Shown here: in pieces, positions 35-23,281 of the stretch
Layout of the letters: each line of letters opens with the position of its first letter
How positions within the stretch are numbered: the first letter of the stretch is position 1
Source: a virus
Strand: one strand, 5' to 3'
IMG/VR virus record: IMGVR_UViG_3300030118_004370
Coordinates: 1-23,281 of that record
DNA: 23,281 nucleotides
Notes under the pieces: generated by a model
What the model saw: the letters and a program-made list of their open reading frames with translations, nothing else
Told to the model about the DNA's origin: nothing
Database searches by the model: none
Made by a program: the position numbers and the translations under genes

Positions 35-646
35 ATGAGTTTGGTATCTGTATCAGTATTAAAAGAGTATCTACCAGAGATACAAGGATCTAGTATTGAT
101 GCAGATCTAACCTCACTTATTTCTCGTGTAGAGGGTTTTATTGCTCGCTATTTGGGTTTTCCCCTAGCAGATTCTGCTACGTCTTACGGTTTAGATTCGT
201 CTACGTATACAATATTTGCTGATAAACCTATGTACGGACTTGAATATGTATTACAATCACCGATCAAGCCTATCATCTCGATTACGTCTATTCATTCTGA
301 CGTTAATCGGGTATATGGTTCTGATACTCTGATAGAAGGATCTCAATATGAGATAGACAAAGAACTAGGAAGAATCATCCTCAAAGATACTTCTCCTGAT
401 TCTTTTGATACTGGTTTCAGAGCGATCAAAATTGTCGGTTCTTTTGGCTTCAGTACATCAAATCCACCATCGGATCTTGTGCATGCTATTTGTGTGTATT
501 GTGCTCATTTACAACGTGCAAAAAGCAATCAAGGAAACGTATCTATCACTCAAAGAAATAGCACAGTTACATTATCACCTAGAACAATGCCTTTAGAAGT
601 TCGAGAGATATTAAGAGGATATAGAAATGTCTCAACTATCTTTTGA
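35..646 (+). CDS. Head-tail connector (adaptor) protein, HK97 gp6-like
   Basis: A 203-residue protein. The N-terminal half is helical, with a motif of the kind seen in HK97 gp6 / SPP1 gp15 adaptors: residues 24-45 (LTSLISRVEGFIARYLGFPL) followed by a Y/G-rich loop. A central beta segment (about 70-145) contains the family-like pattern of a surface loop that starts with a hydrophobic patch and ends in an I-V-GSFGF strand. A helix (about 146-165) then carries H/C/Y residues. Such adaptors form a ring under the portal. It comes first among the connector genes and overlaps the next gene by 20 bases. ATG 35 follows TAGGA at 21-25; an ATG at 31 is out of frame. The family call rests on fold pattern and gene order, not on an alignment. 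Confidence 0.72.
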   Translation: MSLVSVSVLKEYLPEIQGSSIDADLTSLISRVEGFIARYLGFPLADSATSYGLDSSTYTIFADKPMYGLEYVLQSPIKPIISITSIHSDVNRVYGSDTLIEGSQYEIDKELGRIILKDTSPDSFDTGFRAIKIVGSFGFSTSNPPSDLVHAICVYCAHLQRAKSNQGNVSITQRNSTVTLSPRTMPLEVREILRGYRNVSTIF

Positions 647-1016
647 CGATTTTTTAAGGCGAGTAAGAGAAGCAGATAACAGACTTCTCCAAGAGTTAGA
701 ACGGGTCCTTATTCGATCCGCTCTAAGAATGGAAAGAGATGCAAAGATCAATGCAACCTCTTACCCAAAAGTTCAAACAGGAAGACTTAGATCTTCTATT
801 ACGGGTCTTGTAGATGCTCCTCTGGGTTCTCCTAGAGTAGTACTAAGAGCAGGCGGATCTACCTCTGGATCAGATGTGGATTATGCTGAGTTTGTTGAAT
901 TTGGTACTCGGTTTATCAAGCCTCGTTTGTTTTTGGGTAGGGCTGTCAATGCAGAATCTGAACGTCTTCCTGATAGGTTATCTTCTCTTCTTAATGTTGC
1001 TTTGGGAGCAGATTGA
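627..1016 (+). CDS. HK97 gp10-like tail completion / connector protein
   Basis: A 129-residue protein with a clear HK97-gp10 signature. An N-terminal helix is followed by TGRLRSSI (residues 51-58), a beta hairpin, YAEFVEFGT (about 87-95), then a proline and RLFLGRA (about 99-107) and a closing helix. This family links the head to the tail or completes the tail in siphoviruses. It overlaps the upstream gene by 20 bases, and its TGA overlaps the next ATG (TGATG), indicating translational coupling. The gene lies between the adaptor and the tail terminator, as in lambda- and HK97-like phages. Confidence 0.85.
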   Translation: MSQLSFDDFLRRVREADNRLLQELERVLIRSALRMERDAKINATSYPKVQTGRLRSSITGLVDAPLGSPRVVLRAGGSTSGSDVDYAEFVEFGTRFIKPRLFLGRAVNAESERLPDRLSSLLNVALGAD

Positions 1017-2233: not shown

Positions 2234-3190
2234 ATGCCATTACAATTTGGACGTGGAGCATTTATTAAATTAGGAGAAGAATCAACATATGGAACCATAG
2301 CAGGGGCCATGGGTGTTGATAATAGAATCATATCAGCAAGTTTTCAGAAGACACAAGAGAAGGAGAGAAAAACACATCTATCTCAATCCGGTGGTGGTGG
2401 TTTTCAGAATGGTCATTTCGAAGCATTCTTAAACTGTGGGGGTTCTATTGATCTTCCTTTGCTTTATGAAGGTACGGGGATGCTTATTAAAGCCGCTGTA
2501 GGTAATGCTACAACATCGGGATCCGGACCTTATGAACATCTTTATATTCCAACTGCTGACGGTACAGTCCCATCTTTATCTATTGCTCTTCAAAGAGGTA
2601 CAGGGATCAGCAATTCAAAAGAAATCTTCTTAGGTTGCAAGGTTGCAAGTATGAATATCTCAGGATCGGCAGGAGAAGAGATAACCGCATCATTTGAGAT
2701 TATTGCACAAGATTCACAAACCAGAGCAGCTGCATTAACTTCATCATTCGGATCTGGTCGTCAAATGTTTCATTTTGAATGCGGTAATCTTTCCTATAGT
2801 GGTAACAGTTTTGCGATGAAATCTTTTGAATTCACACTTGATAATAAGTTAGAACGTCGTAATGTATTAGGAGATAAGAAGACACTCGAACCAGTTGTAT
2901 CTGATGTTAAAGACGTTACTCTATCCGTTACTCTAGAGATGGAAGATAATCTATTGTTTGATAACTTTATAGCAGGAACACAATCTGATGCAGTGTTTAC
3001 TTTGACAAATAGTGACGGTGATGCCTGTGAGATTACGATTAGAAATGCCTACGTGGTTGATTATGATGATGCTATTAATACCTTTGGACCGATTGAGAGA
3101 ACGATGACTTTTGTAGGTGAATCTGATGCAGTTGATGAAGCAATACAGATCAAGATAACAAATCAACAGGCTTCTGCTGTTGCAAATTAA
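2234..3190 (+). CDS. Major tail tube protein
   Basis: A 318-residue beta-rich protein preceded by the strongest Shine-Dalgarno site of the structural region (AGGAGGT, 2223-2229), as expected for a protein made in hundreds of copies. The N-terminus (GRGAFIKLGEESTYGT, residues 6-21) matches the usual opening of phage tail tube proteins, where an I-x-x-E-x-T-Y-G-T segment follows an initial G-rich strand. The C-terminal half contains a strand pattern (KSFEFTLDNKLERRNVLG) with an internal NKLERR turn seen in tube proteins. It lies just upstream of the chaperone/tape-measure block, the standard location. Its stop TAA overlaps the next ATG by one base. Confidence 0.8.
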   Translation: MPLQFGRGAFIKLGEESTYGTIAGAMGVDNRIISASFQKTQEKERKTHLSQSGGGGFQNGHFEAFLNCGGSIDLPLLYEGTGMLIKAAVGNATTSGSGPYEHLYIPTADGTVPSLSIALQRGTGISNSKEIFLGCKVASMNISGSAGEEITASFEIIAQDSQTRAAALTSSFGSGRQMFHFECGNLSYSGNSFAMKSFEFTLDNKLERRNVLGDKKTLEPVVSDVKDVTLSVTLEMEDNLLFDNFIAGTQSDAVFTLTNSDGDACEITIRNAYVVDYDDAINTFGPIERTMTFVGESDAVDEAIQIKITNQQASAVAN

Positions 3191-3441
3191 TGATCTCTAA
3201 TCTGATCAAAACAATATTAAAAAAACTAGAATGCAATCTTATAGATCTTGAAAGATACAGTGGGATTGAATATTCTATTTTGTGGAGAATGCTAAATAAC
3301 AATCAAGATCCTACAGATTGGGAGATCCAACAACTAGAAAAGGTATTATCTAAGAAAACAGATTATAAACAATCATACATAGATAAAAGATTAAAAAAAT
3401 ATAAGGACAGGAATCATGCAAATATTAAAGGAGATCGCTGA
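3190..3441 (+). CDS. Small helix-turn-helix-like protein
   Basis: An 83-residue, lysine-rich, all-helical protein. Residues 4-48 look like an XRE-type helix-turn-helix: a first helix, then NLIDLERYSGIEYSILWRML as the likely turn and recognition helix, then a WEIQQLEKVL helix. The C-terminal 35 residues are basic. The start overlaps the tail-tube stop by one base and the 3' end overlaps the chaperone by 26 bases, so it is tightly coupled to the late operon. A DNA-binding-like protein is not usual between tube and chaperone. It may be a small regulator or a structural helical protein that only resembles an HTH. Confidence 0.55.
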   Translation: MISNLIKTILKKLECNLIDLERYSGIEYSILWRMLNNNQDPTDWEIQQLEKVLSKKTDYKQSYIDKRLKKYKDRNHANIKGDR

Positions 3442-18846: not shown

Positions 18847-19083
18847 ATGAAACTCATAAAAGAACTTCAAGATCTAGGATGTTGTTTGATAATAGATAAA
18901 AACCCTTCAAAGGGAAATCAATATTCTACAACTTATTTCCGAGCAAAAATAATTCATTCTTCTCGAATCTTTAATATCACATCAAGAACAGGTGTGATTA
19001 GTCAATATCATATTGATCATAAAGGTTTTGATACTGAATATCAGGTTTACAAATACATATTAAATACAATCAAAGGAGAATAA
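18847..19083 (+). CDS. Hypothetical protein (78 residues)
   Basis: A basic alpha/beta protein led by ATAGGAGAATAG. It opens with a helix (KLIKELQDLGC), then strands (CLIIDKNPSKGNQYSTTYFR, IIHSSRIFNITS), and ends in …YKYILNTIKGE, the last codons of which are the next gene's ribosome site. The fold may be a small three-strand domain. No known motif. It is the first of three successive genes ending in IKGE. Confidence 0.6.
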   Translation: MKLIKELQDLGCCLIIDKNPSKGNQYSTTYFRAKIIHSSRIFNITSRTGVISQYHIDHKGFDTEYQVYKYILNTIKGE

Positions 19084-19084
19084 A

Positions 19085-19252
19085 ATGAAATCATGGCTAA
19101 TACAAGTACCCAATAAATCATATCTACAAAAAGAAATTGACTACATTATGAAAAAAGAAGGTTTTACATCTTACGATGATCCTACAGTTTTTTCCATAGA
19201 AGCCTACTCTATAACGTACACAATAACATTCTACACAATCAAAGGAGAATAA
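19085..19252 (+). CDS. Hypothetical protein (55 residues)
   Basis: A short gene between two copies of the AAAGGAGAATAAAATGAAA junction. It encodes MKSWLIQVPNKSYLQKEIDY, a helix and a strand-rich end (SITYTITFYTIKGE). Its size and codon use match its neighbours and it fills the space exactly, with one base between stops and starts on both sides. No motif is seen. The IKGE end is dictated by the embedded ribosome site rather than by function. Confidence 0.6.
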   Translation: MKSWLIQVPNKSYLQKEIDYIMKKEGFTSYDDPTVFSIEAYSITYTITFYTIKGE

Positions 19253-19253
19253 A

Positions 19254-19538
19254 ATGAAACTCATAAAACTAACACAACGAATATTTAATTTAGAAGAGCC
19301 TGAAATAGTATCTGTGTATATCAATATTGATCATATTACTGTCATCGAAGAGGCATGTTTAAGACATAAAGAAAAATACAAACATCAAACAAGAATACAT
19401 CTAAATCATATTGATGCTGTACAAGAAGTTTGTGAAGATATAGAAGAGGTCATTAGAAGAATACACCTTCAAACTATCAAATGGGAAGATGGACAGTTTT
19501 TTATCAATGGTGAACTTCAAGCAATCAAAGGAGAATAA
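19254..19538 (+). CDS. Hypothetical protein (94 residues)
   Basis: An acidic alpha/beta protein led by AAAGGAGAATAAA. It has an N-terminal strand-helix (KLIKLTQRIFNLEEPEIVSV), a strand with THV-like residues (YINIDHITVIEEACLRH), a His-containing middle (TRIHLNHIDAVQEVCED) and a C-terminal QFFINGELQAIKGE. No catalytic motif is clear. It is the third gene of the IKGE series. Function unknown. Confidence 0.6.
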   Translation: MKLIKLTQRIFNLEEPEIVSVYINIDHITVIEEACLRHKEKYKHQTRIHLNHIDAVQEVCEDIEEVIRRIHLQTIKWEDGQFFINGELQAIKGE

Positions 19539-19539
19539 A

Positions 19540-19803
19540 ATGAAACTCAATCTATATATTCAAAAACTACTTAGAGCAATTATTTGTAAAAAAGGAAGAC
19601 AGGAAACCATCGATCTATTTAAGATTGAAAGAACTACTTTGTATAAGTGGGAAAATAACAGTAAATATACTTTTAAAAATATTACAAATCTTGATGTTAT
19701 TTGTATTAAATACTGTGAGGTATTCCCAAAAGAAGATCTCAAAGAAGTATTCATGCAGGGTCTAGTGTTTTACATGGAAGATGCTTTGAAAGATAAAGTA
19801 TAA
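19540..19803 (+). CDS. Helix-turn-helix regulator-like protein
   Basis: An 87-residue protein from ATG 19540, led by AAAGGAGAATAAA. An open frame back to 19489 lies inside the preceding gene and has no ribosome site. Residues 19-40 (GRQETIDLFKIERTTLYKWENN) form a clear helix-turn-helix, with IERTTLYKW as the recognition helix. Flanking helices complete a small XRE- or transposase-like fold. It is the last gene before the terminator at 19828. It may be the regulator that binds the palindrome at 14051 and 16726, but this is untested. Confidence 0.65.
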   Translation: MKLNLYIQKLLRAIICKKGRQETIDLFKIERTTLYKWENNSKYTFKNITNLDVICIKYCEVFPKEDLKEVFMQGLVFYMEDALKDKV

Positions 19804-19869: not shown

Positions 19870-20364
19870 ATGCCAAAGAAGAAAAAAGAGAGCATAGGAG
19901 AATATGTAGATATTGATTCACTTGTTGAATGGGAACACAATCCCAGAATAAACACTGAAGCAGTTTCTAAGGTTGCGAGGTCTATAGAGCGTTTTGGTTT
20001 TGCTTCTCCTGTAATAGCACGAGAAGAGGACTCGATGGTTATTGCAGGTCATACGAGAATTGCAGCAGCACGTAGTCTCGGATTATCCACAATTCCAGTA
20101 CGATATATGAAACTATCGAGAACAGAAGCAGAACTCTTTGCTATTGCTGATAATAAGTTAGGAGAGATAGCAGATTGGGATCAAATAAAATTAGATGAAT
20201 TATTATCTTCATTAGATCAAAAAGAACTTGATATAATAGGATTATCAGATGAAGAAATTGATCATTACTTGAATATAGATTTAGATATCTTTCCTGATCT
20301 ATCAATCGATGAAGAAAAACCATTAAAAGAAAAAAGGTGTCCACACTGCGGAGAAATATTGTGA
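19870..20364 (+). CDS. ParB-like nuclease-domain protein
   Basis: A 164-residue protein led by GGGAG. The ParB/Srx domain spans residues about 12-100: HNPR at 23-26, the FGFASPVIARE strand, AGHTRIAAARSLGL (59-72) with GHTR (60-63) in place of ParB GERR, and FAIADNKLGE (90-99). A C-terminal region ends in a CxxC pair, CPHCGEIL (157-164). Phage ParB-like proteins of this type often sit beside DNA methyltransferases or other DNA-modification genes, as here. It may guide or regulate modification or nick DNA. It overlaps the Mom-like gene by four bases. Confidence 0.85.
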   Translation: MPKKKKESIGEYVDIDSLVEWEHNPRINTEAVSKVARSIERFGFASPVIAREEDSMVIAGHTRIAAARSLGLSTIPVRYMKLSRTEAELFAIADNKLGEIADWDQIKLDELLSSLDQKELDIIGLSDEEIDHYLNIDLDIFPDLSIDEEKPLKEKRCPHCGEIL

Positions 20365-20933
20365 TAAAAGTTGCAAGAATAAGCCAAAAAGACGCACTTA
20401 AAACTTGTAAAAGATATCATTATACTAAGAAGGTTCAAGGTGCAACACATTATTTTGGTGTATGGGATCAAGAACAATATATCGGTTGTGTTGGTTTAGG
20501 TTATGGAGCTTCTCCATTATTAGGAAGAAGAGAAGGATTCGAAACAAATGAAATTTGTGAATTGTTAAGAGTAGCTTTTAGCGGAAAACAAAAACACCAG
20601 ACATCAATGTATATAATGAAAGTAATTAAATTATTCAAAGAAAAAAATAAAACTATCAAAGCGATTTATTCTTTTGCAGATACAGGACAAAATCATAAAG
20701 GTATAATATACCAAGCAATGAATTTTATATATATAGGATTAAGAAAAGGATCTACACCTAAATATAAAATAGGCAACAAAATATATCATGCAAAAACAAT
20801 GACTAAAGAAAGAATGAAAAATGCTATCAAAATTCCTAATACAGATAAACATCTTTATATTCTTCCTCTGTGTAGATCAGCAAGGAAAAAACTTAATAGA
20901 ATAAAAAAAGAATATCCAAAGGCGGAGGGTTAA
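20361..20933 (+). CDS. mom-like: Mom-like DNA-modification protein (GNAT fold)
   Basis: A 190-residue protein starting at GTG 20361, in a GTGA overlap with the ParB-like gene; GGAG at 20350-20353 supports this over the GTG at 20337. Residues 29-72 hold strands ending in NEICELLRVAFSG. Residues 100-126 contain YSFADTGQNHKGIIYQAMNF then IYIG, matching the SYAD…GHxGxIYQAxNWxYxG signature of the phage Mu Mom family. Mom adds a carbamoylmethyl-type group to adenine and protects DNA from restriction. This version would modify the phage's own DNA. Its stop lies inside the tRNA-like element. Confidence 0.75.
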   Translation: MIKVARISQKDALKTCKRYHYTKKVQGATHYFGVWDQEQYIGCVGLGYGASPLLGRREGFETNEICELLRVAFSGKQKHQTSMYIMKVIKLFKEKNKTIKAIYSFADTGQNHKGIIYQAMNFIYIGLRKGSTPKYKIGNKIYHAKTMTKERMKNAIKIPNTDKHLYILPLCRSARKKLNRIKKEYPKAEG

Positions 20934-20987
20934 CAGTAACAATATAGCGACCAGTTATATATATAGGTGCAATTCCTATTCTCCGCT
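20922..20987 (+). ncRNA. Degenerate tRNA-like cloverleaf before the terminase
   Basis: The sequence folds as a cloverleaf. Acceptor: GCGGAGG (20922-20928) pairs with TCTCCGC (20980-20986), six Watson-Crick pairs and one G-U. D-like arm: GTTA/TAAC. Anticodon-like stem: 20943-20947 with 20955-20959 and a seven-base loop CGACCAG. T arm: ATAGG/CCTAT with loop TGCAATT, keeping G53, T54, C56, A57, A58 and C61. Base 55 is G, base 33 is G, the D-loop GG is missing, and there is no CCA. It overlaps the last codons of the Mom-like gene. It may be a decayed tRNA or a tRNA mimic. Confidence 0.45.
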
Positions 20988-21021
20988 CCTTTATTAAAAA
21001 ATATATAAATATAGGTGTCAA

Positions 21022-21486
21022 ATGTCTAAAGTTGGAAGACCGTCAAAATTGAATGAGATTGTTATTCAAATGCTTGAAAAGGCTTATAGTTTGGGTATGT
21101 CTCCAAAACTAGCATGTCACCATGCTTCTGTATCTCAATCCTCATATAATACTTGGATGCAAAGAGGAGAGAAGGATCGATATGATGATAAAGAAACCAT
21201 CTATGCAGATCTGAATAGGAGAGTAAAAAAAGCAAAGTCAAATCATGCACTTGCAAATCTTGCATTGATTCAGAAGGCAGCCAAAGAGCAAAAACAATGG
21301 ACTGCTGCGGCATGGCTCCTCGAAAGAGTACACAAGGAATATCAAAAACAACCGGAACAGATTGTCGAGGTGAATGTAGATAATAGACAGTTATCAGTTG
21401 TTCAGTTAATGAAGGAGTTACAAAGTTCTGATGAAGAGATCAAAGAGTTGATTGCTAGACCTGTGATAGATCTAGATGAGGAGTAG
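21022..21486 (+). CDS. terS: Small terminase subunit
   Basis: A 154-residue protein led by AGGTG. Residues 4-40 (GRPSKLN… ACHHASVSQSSYNTWMQRG) form the helix-turn-helix opening common in phage small terminases. It is followed by a long helical oligomerisation region (RRVKKAKSNHALANLALIQKAAKEQ) and an acidic C-terminus that would contact the large subunit. It recognises the packaging site and loads DNA into the motor. The upstream cloverleaf and the repeated ATATAGGTG (20961 and 21009) lie near its start. The gene order before the large subunit supports the call. Confidence 0.8.
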   Translation: MSKVGRPSKLNEIVIQMLEKAYSLGMSPKLACHHASVSQSSYNTWMQRGEKDRYDDKETIYADLNRRVKKAKSNHALANLALIQKAAKEQKQWTAAAWLLERVHKEYQKQPEQIVEVNVDNRQLSVVQLMKELQSSDEEIKELIARPVIDLDEE

Positions 21487-21489
21487 AGA

Positions 21490-21795
21490 ATGAATTCATC
21501 TATAAAGAGTGTGCATTTTTCGAAATGGTTGAGAAAGAAGATTGGATCTAGAGTTCATTTCTGTAGAAAATATGGGTGGAAGTCTAGAGAAATACTTAGA
21601 TGGACACAAGGTGATAACTTCCCAAAAGGACCCGCACGAGCACAACTTATTTATGATCTACATTTGCATATTGATCAAGAATATACATCGTTACTAGCAG
21701 AGTGTGATGAACAACTTATGAGAGACTACAAAGTATACAAATATGAACAGGAAAAAATTAGAAGACAATCTGAAAAAGAAACAACAACTGATTGA
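21490..21795 (+). CDS. HTH protein between the terminase subunits
   Basis: A 101-residue basic protein three bases after the small terminase gene. Residues 18-48 (GSRVHFCRKYGWKSREILRW … NFPKG) look like an XRE-type helix-turn-helix. The rest is a charged helix (RDYKVYKYEQEKIRRQSEKE). Its 3' end overlaps the large subunit by 53 bases. A DNA-binding protein in this place is uncommon. It could assist packaging-site recognition or be a late regulator. Confidence 0.6.
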   Translation: MNSSIKSVHFSKWLRKKIGSRVHFCRKYGWKSREILRWTQGDNFPKGPARAQLIYDLHLHIDQEYTSLLAECDEQLMRDYKVYKYEQEKIRRQSEKETTTD

Positions 21796-23218
21796 GTATG
21801 CAAAGAACTATCCTCTATCTGTTTCTCTTCTTTGGGTTCCTCATTGCCATAACTACACAGGCATAACAGGAGAACGGGATCGGGGTTGTGGTCGTCCTAT
21901 GAAAAGAATCAAAGGAGATCTATATAGGTGCGATCATTGTGATATTACAGAGAAGAGAACCTCACAACAGCATTCTCTACTTTCATTAGGTCAAGAAGCT
22001 ACTTTGCTGTCAGGCGGCAATAGGGCGGGCAAAACAGAGGTGGGTGCATGTCTATCTGTTGCCGCTGCGAGCGGTTCAAAGGAGCAATATGTTAGGGATT
22101 GGTTACAACTTAATAACCTACCTCTTGATCTAGTTCCTGAAAATCCATCAACTGTTTGGTGTGCTTCATTGAGTTATAAAGACGGTCTAGAATACCTTAG
22201 ACCAAAACTAGACAAATATCTTCCTGTAGGCACAAAGAAAACACGTTGGACTTCTCAAGATCGGGCAGTTGCTATTCTTCCTAATGGTGGCAGGATCGTT
22301 TCTATGAGTTGTGATTCAGGTCGTGAGGGTTTTCAAGGCGGATCTGTCTCTATGGTTTGGATTGATGAAGAACCTAATGATGAGGGTATATTTCACGAGT
22401 GTTTATTGCGTACAGTAGATCTTAAAGGAAAAGTGATAATAACAGCTACACCTCTCAAAGGCTTATCGTGGATGTTTGAAAGATTTGTTGAGAATCCTGC
22501 AAAGGGTTTTGAAGTTGTGAAAATATCCGGTCTTGATAATCCTTATGTATCATCCTTCAAAATGAGAAGAACCGTTTCACACCTTACAGAAGCATCTCAA
22601 AGATCTAGATTGTTTGGTGAGTTCTCAAGTCAATCCGGTCTAGTTTATCCAGAGTTCTCCAAAGATACACACTTGATAAATATAGAAGAGATTCCGGATC
22701 ACTGGAGAAGATATATATCTATTGACTTTGGATCTTCACATCCCTTCTGTGCGTTATGGGTTGCTGAAGCCCCTGCAGGTTATTACTCTTCTGATACTAC
22801 TTTGATTGTATATCGTGAACTCTATTGGGTGAATCATACAACGATAGAATCAGGTAGAGAGATCAACAGAATCAACAAGTTACATAATGAAGAGATACAT
22901 TGGTATGTAGCAGATCCGGAAAGCAAGGATGGGCGTCTCACACTGGGAAGAGAATGCAATATAAGAACATTACCTGCTCCAAAACATTTGGGTGTGAATG
23001 AGGGGATCAATATGGTTAGAGAATATTTACAGATTGATAAAGAGGGGAAATCTAGACTTTTATTTACTAAGGATGTAAAAAATACTTTAAGGGAGTTTAG
23101 GCTGTATAAATGGGATCACAAGTCAAAAAAGGACGTAGTAAAAAAATCATCGGATCATGCTATGGACAGTTTAAGGTACATGATCATGCAATACATGAGA
23201 TATAATGCACATCAATAG
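21743..23218 (+). CDS. terL: Large terminase subunit (ATPase-nuclease)
   Basis: A 491-residue protein. Before the ATPase, residues 35-66 hold Cys35, Cys49, Cys63 and Cys66 (an HCHNYTG … GCGRP … YRCDHC pattern) that could bind zinc. The ATPase has Walker A GGNRAGKT (91-98), Walker B SMVWIDEEP (203-211) and TATP (234-237). The RNase H-like nuclease has IDFGSSHP (Asp328), ADPESKD (Asp391) and DHAMDSLRY (471-479). It pumps DNA into the prohead and cuts it. The start at 21743 overlaps the HTH gene by 53 bases and no better in-frame start is seen before the ATPase. Confidence 0.95.
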   Translation: MNRKKLEDNLKKKQQLIEYAKNYPLSVSLLWVPHCHNYTGITGERDRGCGRPMKRIKGDLYRCDHCDITEKRTSQQHSLLSLGQEATLLSGGNRAGKTEVGACLSVAAASGSKEQYVRDWLQLNNLPLDLVPENPSTVWCASLSYKDGLEYLRPKLDKYLPVGTKKTRWTSQDRAVAILPNGGRIVSMSCDSGREGFQGGSVSMVWIDEEPNDEGIFHECLLRTVDLKGKVIITATPLKGLSWMFERFVENPAKGFEVVKISGLDNPYVSSFKMRRTVSHLTEASQRSRLFGEFSSQSGLVYPEFSKDTHLINIEEIPDHWRRYISIDFGSSHPFCALWVAEAPAGYYSSDTTLIVYRELYWVNHTTIESGREINRINKLHNEEIHWYVADPESKDGRLTLGRECNIRTLPAPKHLGVNEGINMVREYLQIDKEGKSRLLFTKDVKNTLREFRLYKWDHKSKKDVVKKSSDHAMDSLRYMIMQYMRYNAHQ

Positions 23219-23227
23219 GAGAATACA

Positions 23228-23281
23228 ATGAAACGTGTTTTAATTGCTTGTGAATACTCAGGAAGAGTTAGAGAGGCATTA
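23228..23281 (+). CDS. Probable DNA (cytosine-type) methyltransferase, N-terminus only
   Basis: This gene is cut by the window edge. It is led by ATAGGAGAATACA and starts MKRVLIACEYSGRVREAL, which matches the opening strand and glycine-rich SAM-binding loop (…VLxACExSGRVRxAF…) of a common phage methyltransferase-like family. Only 18 residues are visible, so catalytic residues cannot be checked. It would add to the ParB/Mom-like modification group. Confidence 0.65.
   Translation, partial: MKRVLIACEYSGRVREAL

Follow-up and report, generated by a model that had tools for sequence, protein, structure and literature searches.

The window analysed here, that is the whole stretch of 23,281 nucleotides (bases 1-23,281 of a virus record totalling 32,210 bases), very likely encodes a compact phage DNA-glycylation module with three components: a ParB-like protein, the enzyme Mom and, overlapping mom at its 3' end, a tRNA-Gly-like RNA dedicated to the module. 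Computation established these components and the order in which they are conserved, as well as the structure and tRNA-Gly identity of the RNA; the locus is laid out as follows.

19870-20364, + strand: ParB-like protein gene, 164 aa (Pfam ParB_N, PHROG, fold match)
20335-20361, + strand: C-terminal tail RCPHCGEIL of the ParB-like protein, containing the CPxC knuckle (alignment of 43 ParBs)
20361-20364, + strand: four-base overlap GTGA of the ParB stop and the mom start (sequence)
20361-20933, + strand: Mom-like GNAT-fold enzyme gene, 190 aa, GTG start (Pfam Mom, PHROG, model)
20922-20989, + strand: tRNA-Gly-like RNA (leave-window-out covariance model, cloverleaf fold, relatives)
20950-20952, + strand: anticodon ACC (Gly) within the loop CGACCAG, with G, not U, at position 33
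21022-21486, + strand: terminase small subunit (PHROG 4102, E 3e-24)
21743-23218, + strand: terminase large subunit (Pfam Terminase_6N, E 1e-7)
23229-23281, + strand: gene start of 18 codons, MKRVLIACEYSGRVREAL, truncated by a 10-N run in the record

A Mom-type DNA-protection module beside the packaging genes had been put forward in the first-pass annotation and is supported by the present analysis, the arrangement recurring in relatives; the four-base overlap between the ParB-like and Mom-like genes was likewise confirmed in the sequence. The RNA is unannotated and had been overlooked in that earlier reading.

The Mom-like enzyme and its ParB-like partner

The identification of both proteins, previously made from the sequence alone, was upheld in profile searches. 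The Mom-like protein yielded a full-length match over the cut-off to Pfam Mom (PF25680; E 2.8e-36, residues 10-195) and a match to the PHROG Mom-like family (E 1.3e-40). Its AlphaFold model (pLDDT 94) had as best fold match the crystal structure of Mu Mom, 8BV8 (Z 19.3, 180 residues, rmsd 3.3), with other GNAT proteins trailing at Z 12.5; the matches listed included GNAT acetyltransferases and no FemX-type aminoacyl-tRNA transferase, a result that does not discriminate between these activities. The 8BV8 entry is titled in the PDB as the inactive S124A mutant, and sequence comparison places the change at Mu residue 124. Residue S82 of the window Mom aligns with this catalytic S124, was invariant in the first alignments and, across 56 Moms, sits at a position with 90% conservation or more. 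The window Mom sits on a long branch, scanning viral contigs with this single protein revealed no close relative, and the Mom alignment (A5) was too diverse for use as a search query. Elsewhere in the family, near-alike 260-aa Mom genes are found across Bacillota genera (L131-L139), accompanied by neither ParB nor RNA, which suggests a recently moving element.

The ParB-like protein matched Pfam ParB_N (PF02195; E 2.7e-7, over the family cut-off) and the PHROG ParB-like family (E 7e-41), and its predicted structure matched the N-domains of ParB, Noc and KorB. It consists of a ParB/Srx N-domain, with the motif AGHTRIAAA, and a C-terminal CPxC knuckle, in which C157, P158 and C160 are nearly invariant across the 43 aligned ParBs; L152, ahead of the tail, is among the most conserved positions in the Mom-linked proteins. 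The sequences of Mom-adjacent ParBs are diverse, yet the CPxC tail is common to them. Among the window-like Moms in IMG/VR, the nearest ones almost always have an overlapping ParB upstream, and in the 70% non-redundant set ParB was present in 84 of the 92 loci having either ParB or the RNA. ParB is thus a conserved partner of the Mom clade of the window, which makes it plausible that it directs or regulates Mom.

We considered whether the CPxC tail might be a Mom-specific, Com-like Zn finger, an idea weakened by the occurrence of the same tail in ParBs beside C5 methylases: at four loci (L350, L355, L367 and L369), stand-alone genes for CPxC-tailed ParBs are followed by C5-cytosine methylase genes. 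ParB is also fused to, or located beside, other phage DNA-modifying enzymes, and ParBc genes adjoin CmoX in phages (PMC12783734). Because tailed ParBs precede C5 methylases and ParBc genes neighbour CmoX, a role as a general accessory shared by phage DNA-modifying enzymes is favoured, on comparative grounds, over Mom-specific regulation. A different possibility is that ParB neither delivers nor controls Mom but is a nuclease or nickase, forming the restriction half of a system that attacks unmodified DNA. Nicking or nuclease activity is indeed found in some ParB/Srx proteins, and the Moms of jumbo phages are fused to nucleases (PMC5512222, PMC7824862). However, the predicted fold resembles CTP-binding ParB clamps, and the presence of the same tailed ParB beside C5 methylases fits a general accessory; neither point is decisive, and we regard a nuclease as unlikely while still a serious contender. 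The role of ParB is accordingly the least certain part of the reading of the locus as a DNA-glycylation module; should that reading be true, ParB-like proteins would be linked with DNA modification in the role of a common partner.

The tRNA-Gly-like RNA in the window and in its relatives

The window RNA folds as a cloverleaf (z -2.9) in which the acceptor stem, anticodon arm and T-arm are all present, and it was the sole match in 36 kb to a covariance model built from relatives with the window excluded (27.2 bits, E 0.0014). It is an AU-rich, low-scoring member of its family: ARAGORN called no tRNA at this position, and the Rfam tRNA model scored it at 19 bits, under the cut-off of 29. As neither ARAGORN nor the Rfam gathering score recognizes it, we refer to it as tRNA-Gly-like rather than as an ordinary tRNA gene. 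The RNA nevertheless carries the full bacterial tRNA-Gly identity set, which comprises G1-C72, C2-G71, G3-C70, U73, C35 and C36: the acceptor stem is GCGGAGG/TCTCCGC (GCG/CGC ends), the discriminator U73 lies at 20987 and a CC is encoded at the very end (20988-20989). Features associated with translation are missing, with G33 in place of U33 and a D-loop, ACAG, devoid of G18-G19. The T-stem includes the pairs A49-U65 and A51-U63, which also occur in S. aureus non-proteinogenic tRNA-Gly, for which weak EF-Tu binding and a role in cell-wall synthesis have been inferred (PMC4052509).

The same RNA element overlaps or abuts mom in ~160 further loci, mostly on metagenomic contigs, and displays very strong covariation. 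Among cultured phages with the module, Arthrobacter phage Martha has the RNA at L004:6577-6649. Most elements carry one extra base between the T-arm and the acceptor, and so escaped a rigid tRNA scan; a relaxed scan of all mom 3' ends detected the element in the majority of viral loci with a linked ParB, against a background of matches in 1.1% of control tiles. Across 67 aligned elements, 80% of cells were paired (versus 59% in shuffles; 95% in the acceptor stem) and 308 cells showed double changes (versus 109 shuffled). A second set comprised 73 loci, of which 65 were on contigs new to the analysis; all 73 had ParB upstream and one RNA match at the mom 3' end, and covariation recurred in these mostly held-out loci (255 double-change cells versus 80 shuffled). 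All matches of the 67-element covariance model in 1.6 Mb adjoined mom, among them one tRNA-Gly on the opposite strand beside mom and one located 255 nt downstream. The RNA 5' end lies between -156 and +36 nt relative to the mom stop (median -91), and the Mom residues encoded inside the RNA are poorly conserved, which points to the RNA as the target of selection. Two atypical placements were noted: in locus L246, RNA copies at 1891-1964 and 2944-3017 lie near the 5' ends, not the 3' ends, of two tandem mom genes, and in Microbacterium phage Dropshot (L005:6651-6725, - strand) an annotated tRNA-Gly(ccc) is found beside mom on the opposite strand.

Glycine identity extends throughout the family. 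U73 was found in all 67 elements and GCG/CGC acceptor ends in 65 of 67, with NCC anticodon loops in the held-out matches, counts that taken alone are biased because the first scan selected on U, a leading G and CC (C35/C36). The cleanest test, which needs no selection criterion, is the run of a model built from the mom side only on three whole bacterial genomes, where all eight matches were tRNA-Gly genes. Similarly, all calls that name an amino acid at mom 3' ends, made in several relatives by ARAGORN, a program that uses no information on Mom, are tRNA-Gly; C35/C36 were required for selection in neither of these two analyses. Conversely, U33 was present in just 23 of 67 elements, the D-arm is missing in many, most relatives have a conserved T-stem non-pair, and no tRNA was called at the Rfam gathering score in 18 sources of elements. 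Judging from these sequences, the window RNA and its relatives are probably non-translating.

Three other origins of the RNA have to be weighed against a dedicated glycine donor. Were it an ordinary translation tRNA-Gly of the phage codon-supply type, located near mom by chance, the canonical look of some copies named by ARAGORN would be expected, as would the tRNA-Gly amid other tRNAs at loci L129 and L222. Yet nearly all elements overlap the mom frame at one place, most are missed by both ARAGORN and Rfam and lack translation features (the scarce U33, the frequently lost D-arm and the T-stem mismatch), and the element is always of the glycine type and absent from ParB-methylase loci, all of which renders chance proximity improbable. 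A cis-acting, never charged signal that serves to process the mom mRNA or to control its translation would account for the position of the element inside the mom transcript and recall the tight control of Mu mom by Com and Dam/OxyR. Such a signal would have no need for glycine identity bases, an NCC anticodon or an encoded CC(A), however, and the model recognized only tRNA-Gly genes in the three genomes, so that we consider a cis signal highly improbable. Finally, tRNA genes are frequent integration sites of temperate phages, which then carry a part of the gene, and the RNA could be the relic of an attachment site at a host tRNA-Gly gene. This explanation is barely credible, given that the elements form whole cloverleaves in which every helix shows compensatory changes, that they are placed between mom and terminase, and that no integrase is annotated next to them in the annotated records examined.

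The glycine-donor reading is also consistent with the partner that the RNA follows. When 80 ParB loci were picked on ParB alone, ignoring Mom, 52 proved to be fused to methylases and five had an adjacent Mom; the RNA was present in exactly those five and absent from the ParB-methylase loci. In the 70% non-redundant set, 80 loci had ParB and RNA, eight only the RNA, four only ParB and 65 neither, the count of 80 not being evidence of 80 independent events because most belong to one clade. The association of ParB with the RNA mainly reflects shared clade membership; a phylogenetically independent sign test gave p 0.25, with low power, as only five independent contrasts were available. A tRNA-Gly adjoining mom is also seen on several scattered branches beyond the ParB clade, one example being locus L180, where Mom shares 49% identity with the Mu protein. 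The tRNA-rich viral contig L222 bears two mom plus tRNA-Gly cassettes (2-863 and 2477-3336), the second with a fragmented Mom gene. The RNA was not found at the ParB-linked moms of Paenibacillus, Yersinia and phiEf11 type, nor at Mu mom, indicating that some systems do without it; where it is missing, tRNA-Gly of the host may take its place.

A proposed route of glycine to phage DNA

We infer a series of steps that covers processing and charging of the RNA, its poor use by EF-Tu and the ribosome, the product in the window phage and the role of ParB. The ParB-mom-RNA transcript would be processed as a tRNA precursor, and the RNA, whose acceptor, discriminator and anticodon bases mark it as tRNA-Gly, would be charged by the host glycyl-tRNA synthetase. 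Owing to its altered T-stem, D-loop and anticodon loop, the RNA would be used poorly by EF-Tu and the ribosome, leaving the charged glycine reserved for Mom. Mom, as a GNAT-fold transferase, would then transfer the glycyl group to the N6 of adenine in phage DNA, to which ParB would bring it or on which ParB would control it, and the resulting bulky adenine would block restriction. As a chemical proposal, rearrangement of the N6 glycyl might yield the glycinamide form known from Mu.

To our knowledge, the donor used by Mom has long been an open question. The embedding of the RNA at mom makes it the simplest account that Mom of the window's clade uses a phage-supplied glycyl-RNA, and the sequences suggest that the enzyme takes glycine from a tRNA provided by the phage itself. 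For Mu, one sentence in a meeting report (meeting held in 2025, published in 2026) says that hypermodification of adenosine in the phage DNA depends on tRNA-Gly for glycyl transfer (PMC12908700); the tRNA-Gly in the mom genes of many phages independently points to glycyl-tRNA, in agreement with that report.

Among the closest known systems is Mu Com-Mom, with which the window shares the fold and catalytic Ser of Mom, a small gene that lies directly upstream of mom and overlaps it, and dependence on tRNA-Gly (reported for Mu, presumed for the window); the upstream gene, however, is Com in Mu and ParB here, and Mu mom lacks a detectable tRNA-Gly-like RNA. The S. aureus FemX/FemA/FemB system resembles the proposed module in that a dedicated tRNA-Gly with weak EF-Tu features feeds a transferase (PMC4052509), but its acceptor is peptidoglycan instead of DNA and its tRNA lies outside the enzyme gene, whereas the window RNA is embedded in mom. 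Phage ParB-methylase fusions and ParBs beside CmoX similarly combine a ParB domain with DNA-modifying enzymes (PMC12783734), the partners in the window being Mom and a tRNA-like RNA, which the ParB-methylase loci lack.

On balance, we lean towards a wider interpretation, namely that the locus represents a widespread class of phage DNA modification, with its own tRNA-Gly-like donor embedded in the enzyme gene, adapted to charging rather than to translation, and with ParB as the DNA-loading subunit. If so, the modification of DNA would rely on aminoacyl-tRNA chemistry and on a tRNA made for the purpose, and we know of no earlier case of a DNA-modification system carrying its own tRNA. A search of the literature on Mom with ParB, or Mom with a phage tRNA, returned no account of the module, coverage being incomplete, and we provisionally regard it as undescribed. 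The loci offer many natural enzyme-RNA pairs for testing.

Genomic surroundings of the module

The large terminase subunit is the next large downstream gene in many relatives (phrog_2 in at least 33 of 70), the downstream terminases varying in type and including many families besides phrog_2. The 18 codons that close the window (MKRVLIACEYSGRVREAL) had earlier been termed methyltransferase-like and are too short to classify; an N6_N4_Mtase DNA methylase (E 2e-31) starts just past the N gap, outside the window, and is followed by a portal protein gene. The gap consists of ten N at record positions 23282-23291, directly after the window, and the last kilobase of the record (L002:12156-13137) is near-identical, with substitutions, to window positions 35-1016. 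Together, the gap and the end repeat would fit either a scaffold assembled across related strains or a genome that is circularly permuted. Upstream of the ParB-like gene, the junction sequence ATCAAAGGAGAATAAAATGAAA is common to the starts of three consecutive small genes (19066-19090, 19236-19260 and 19525-19545).
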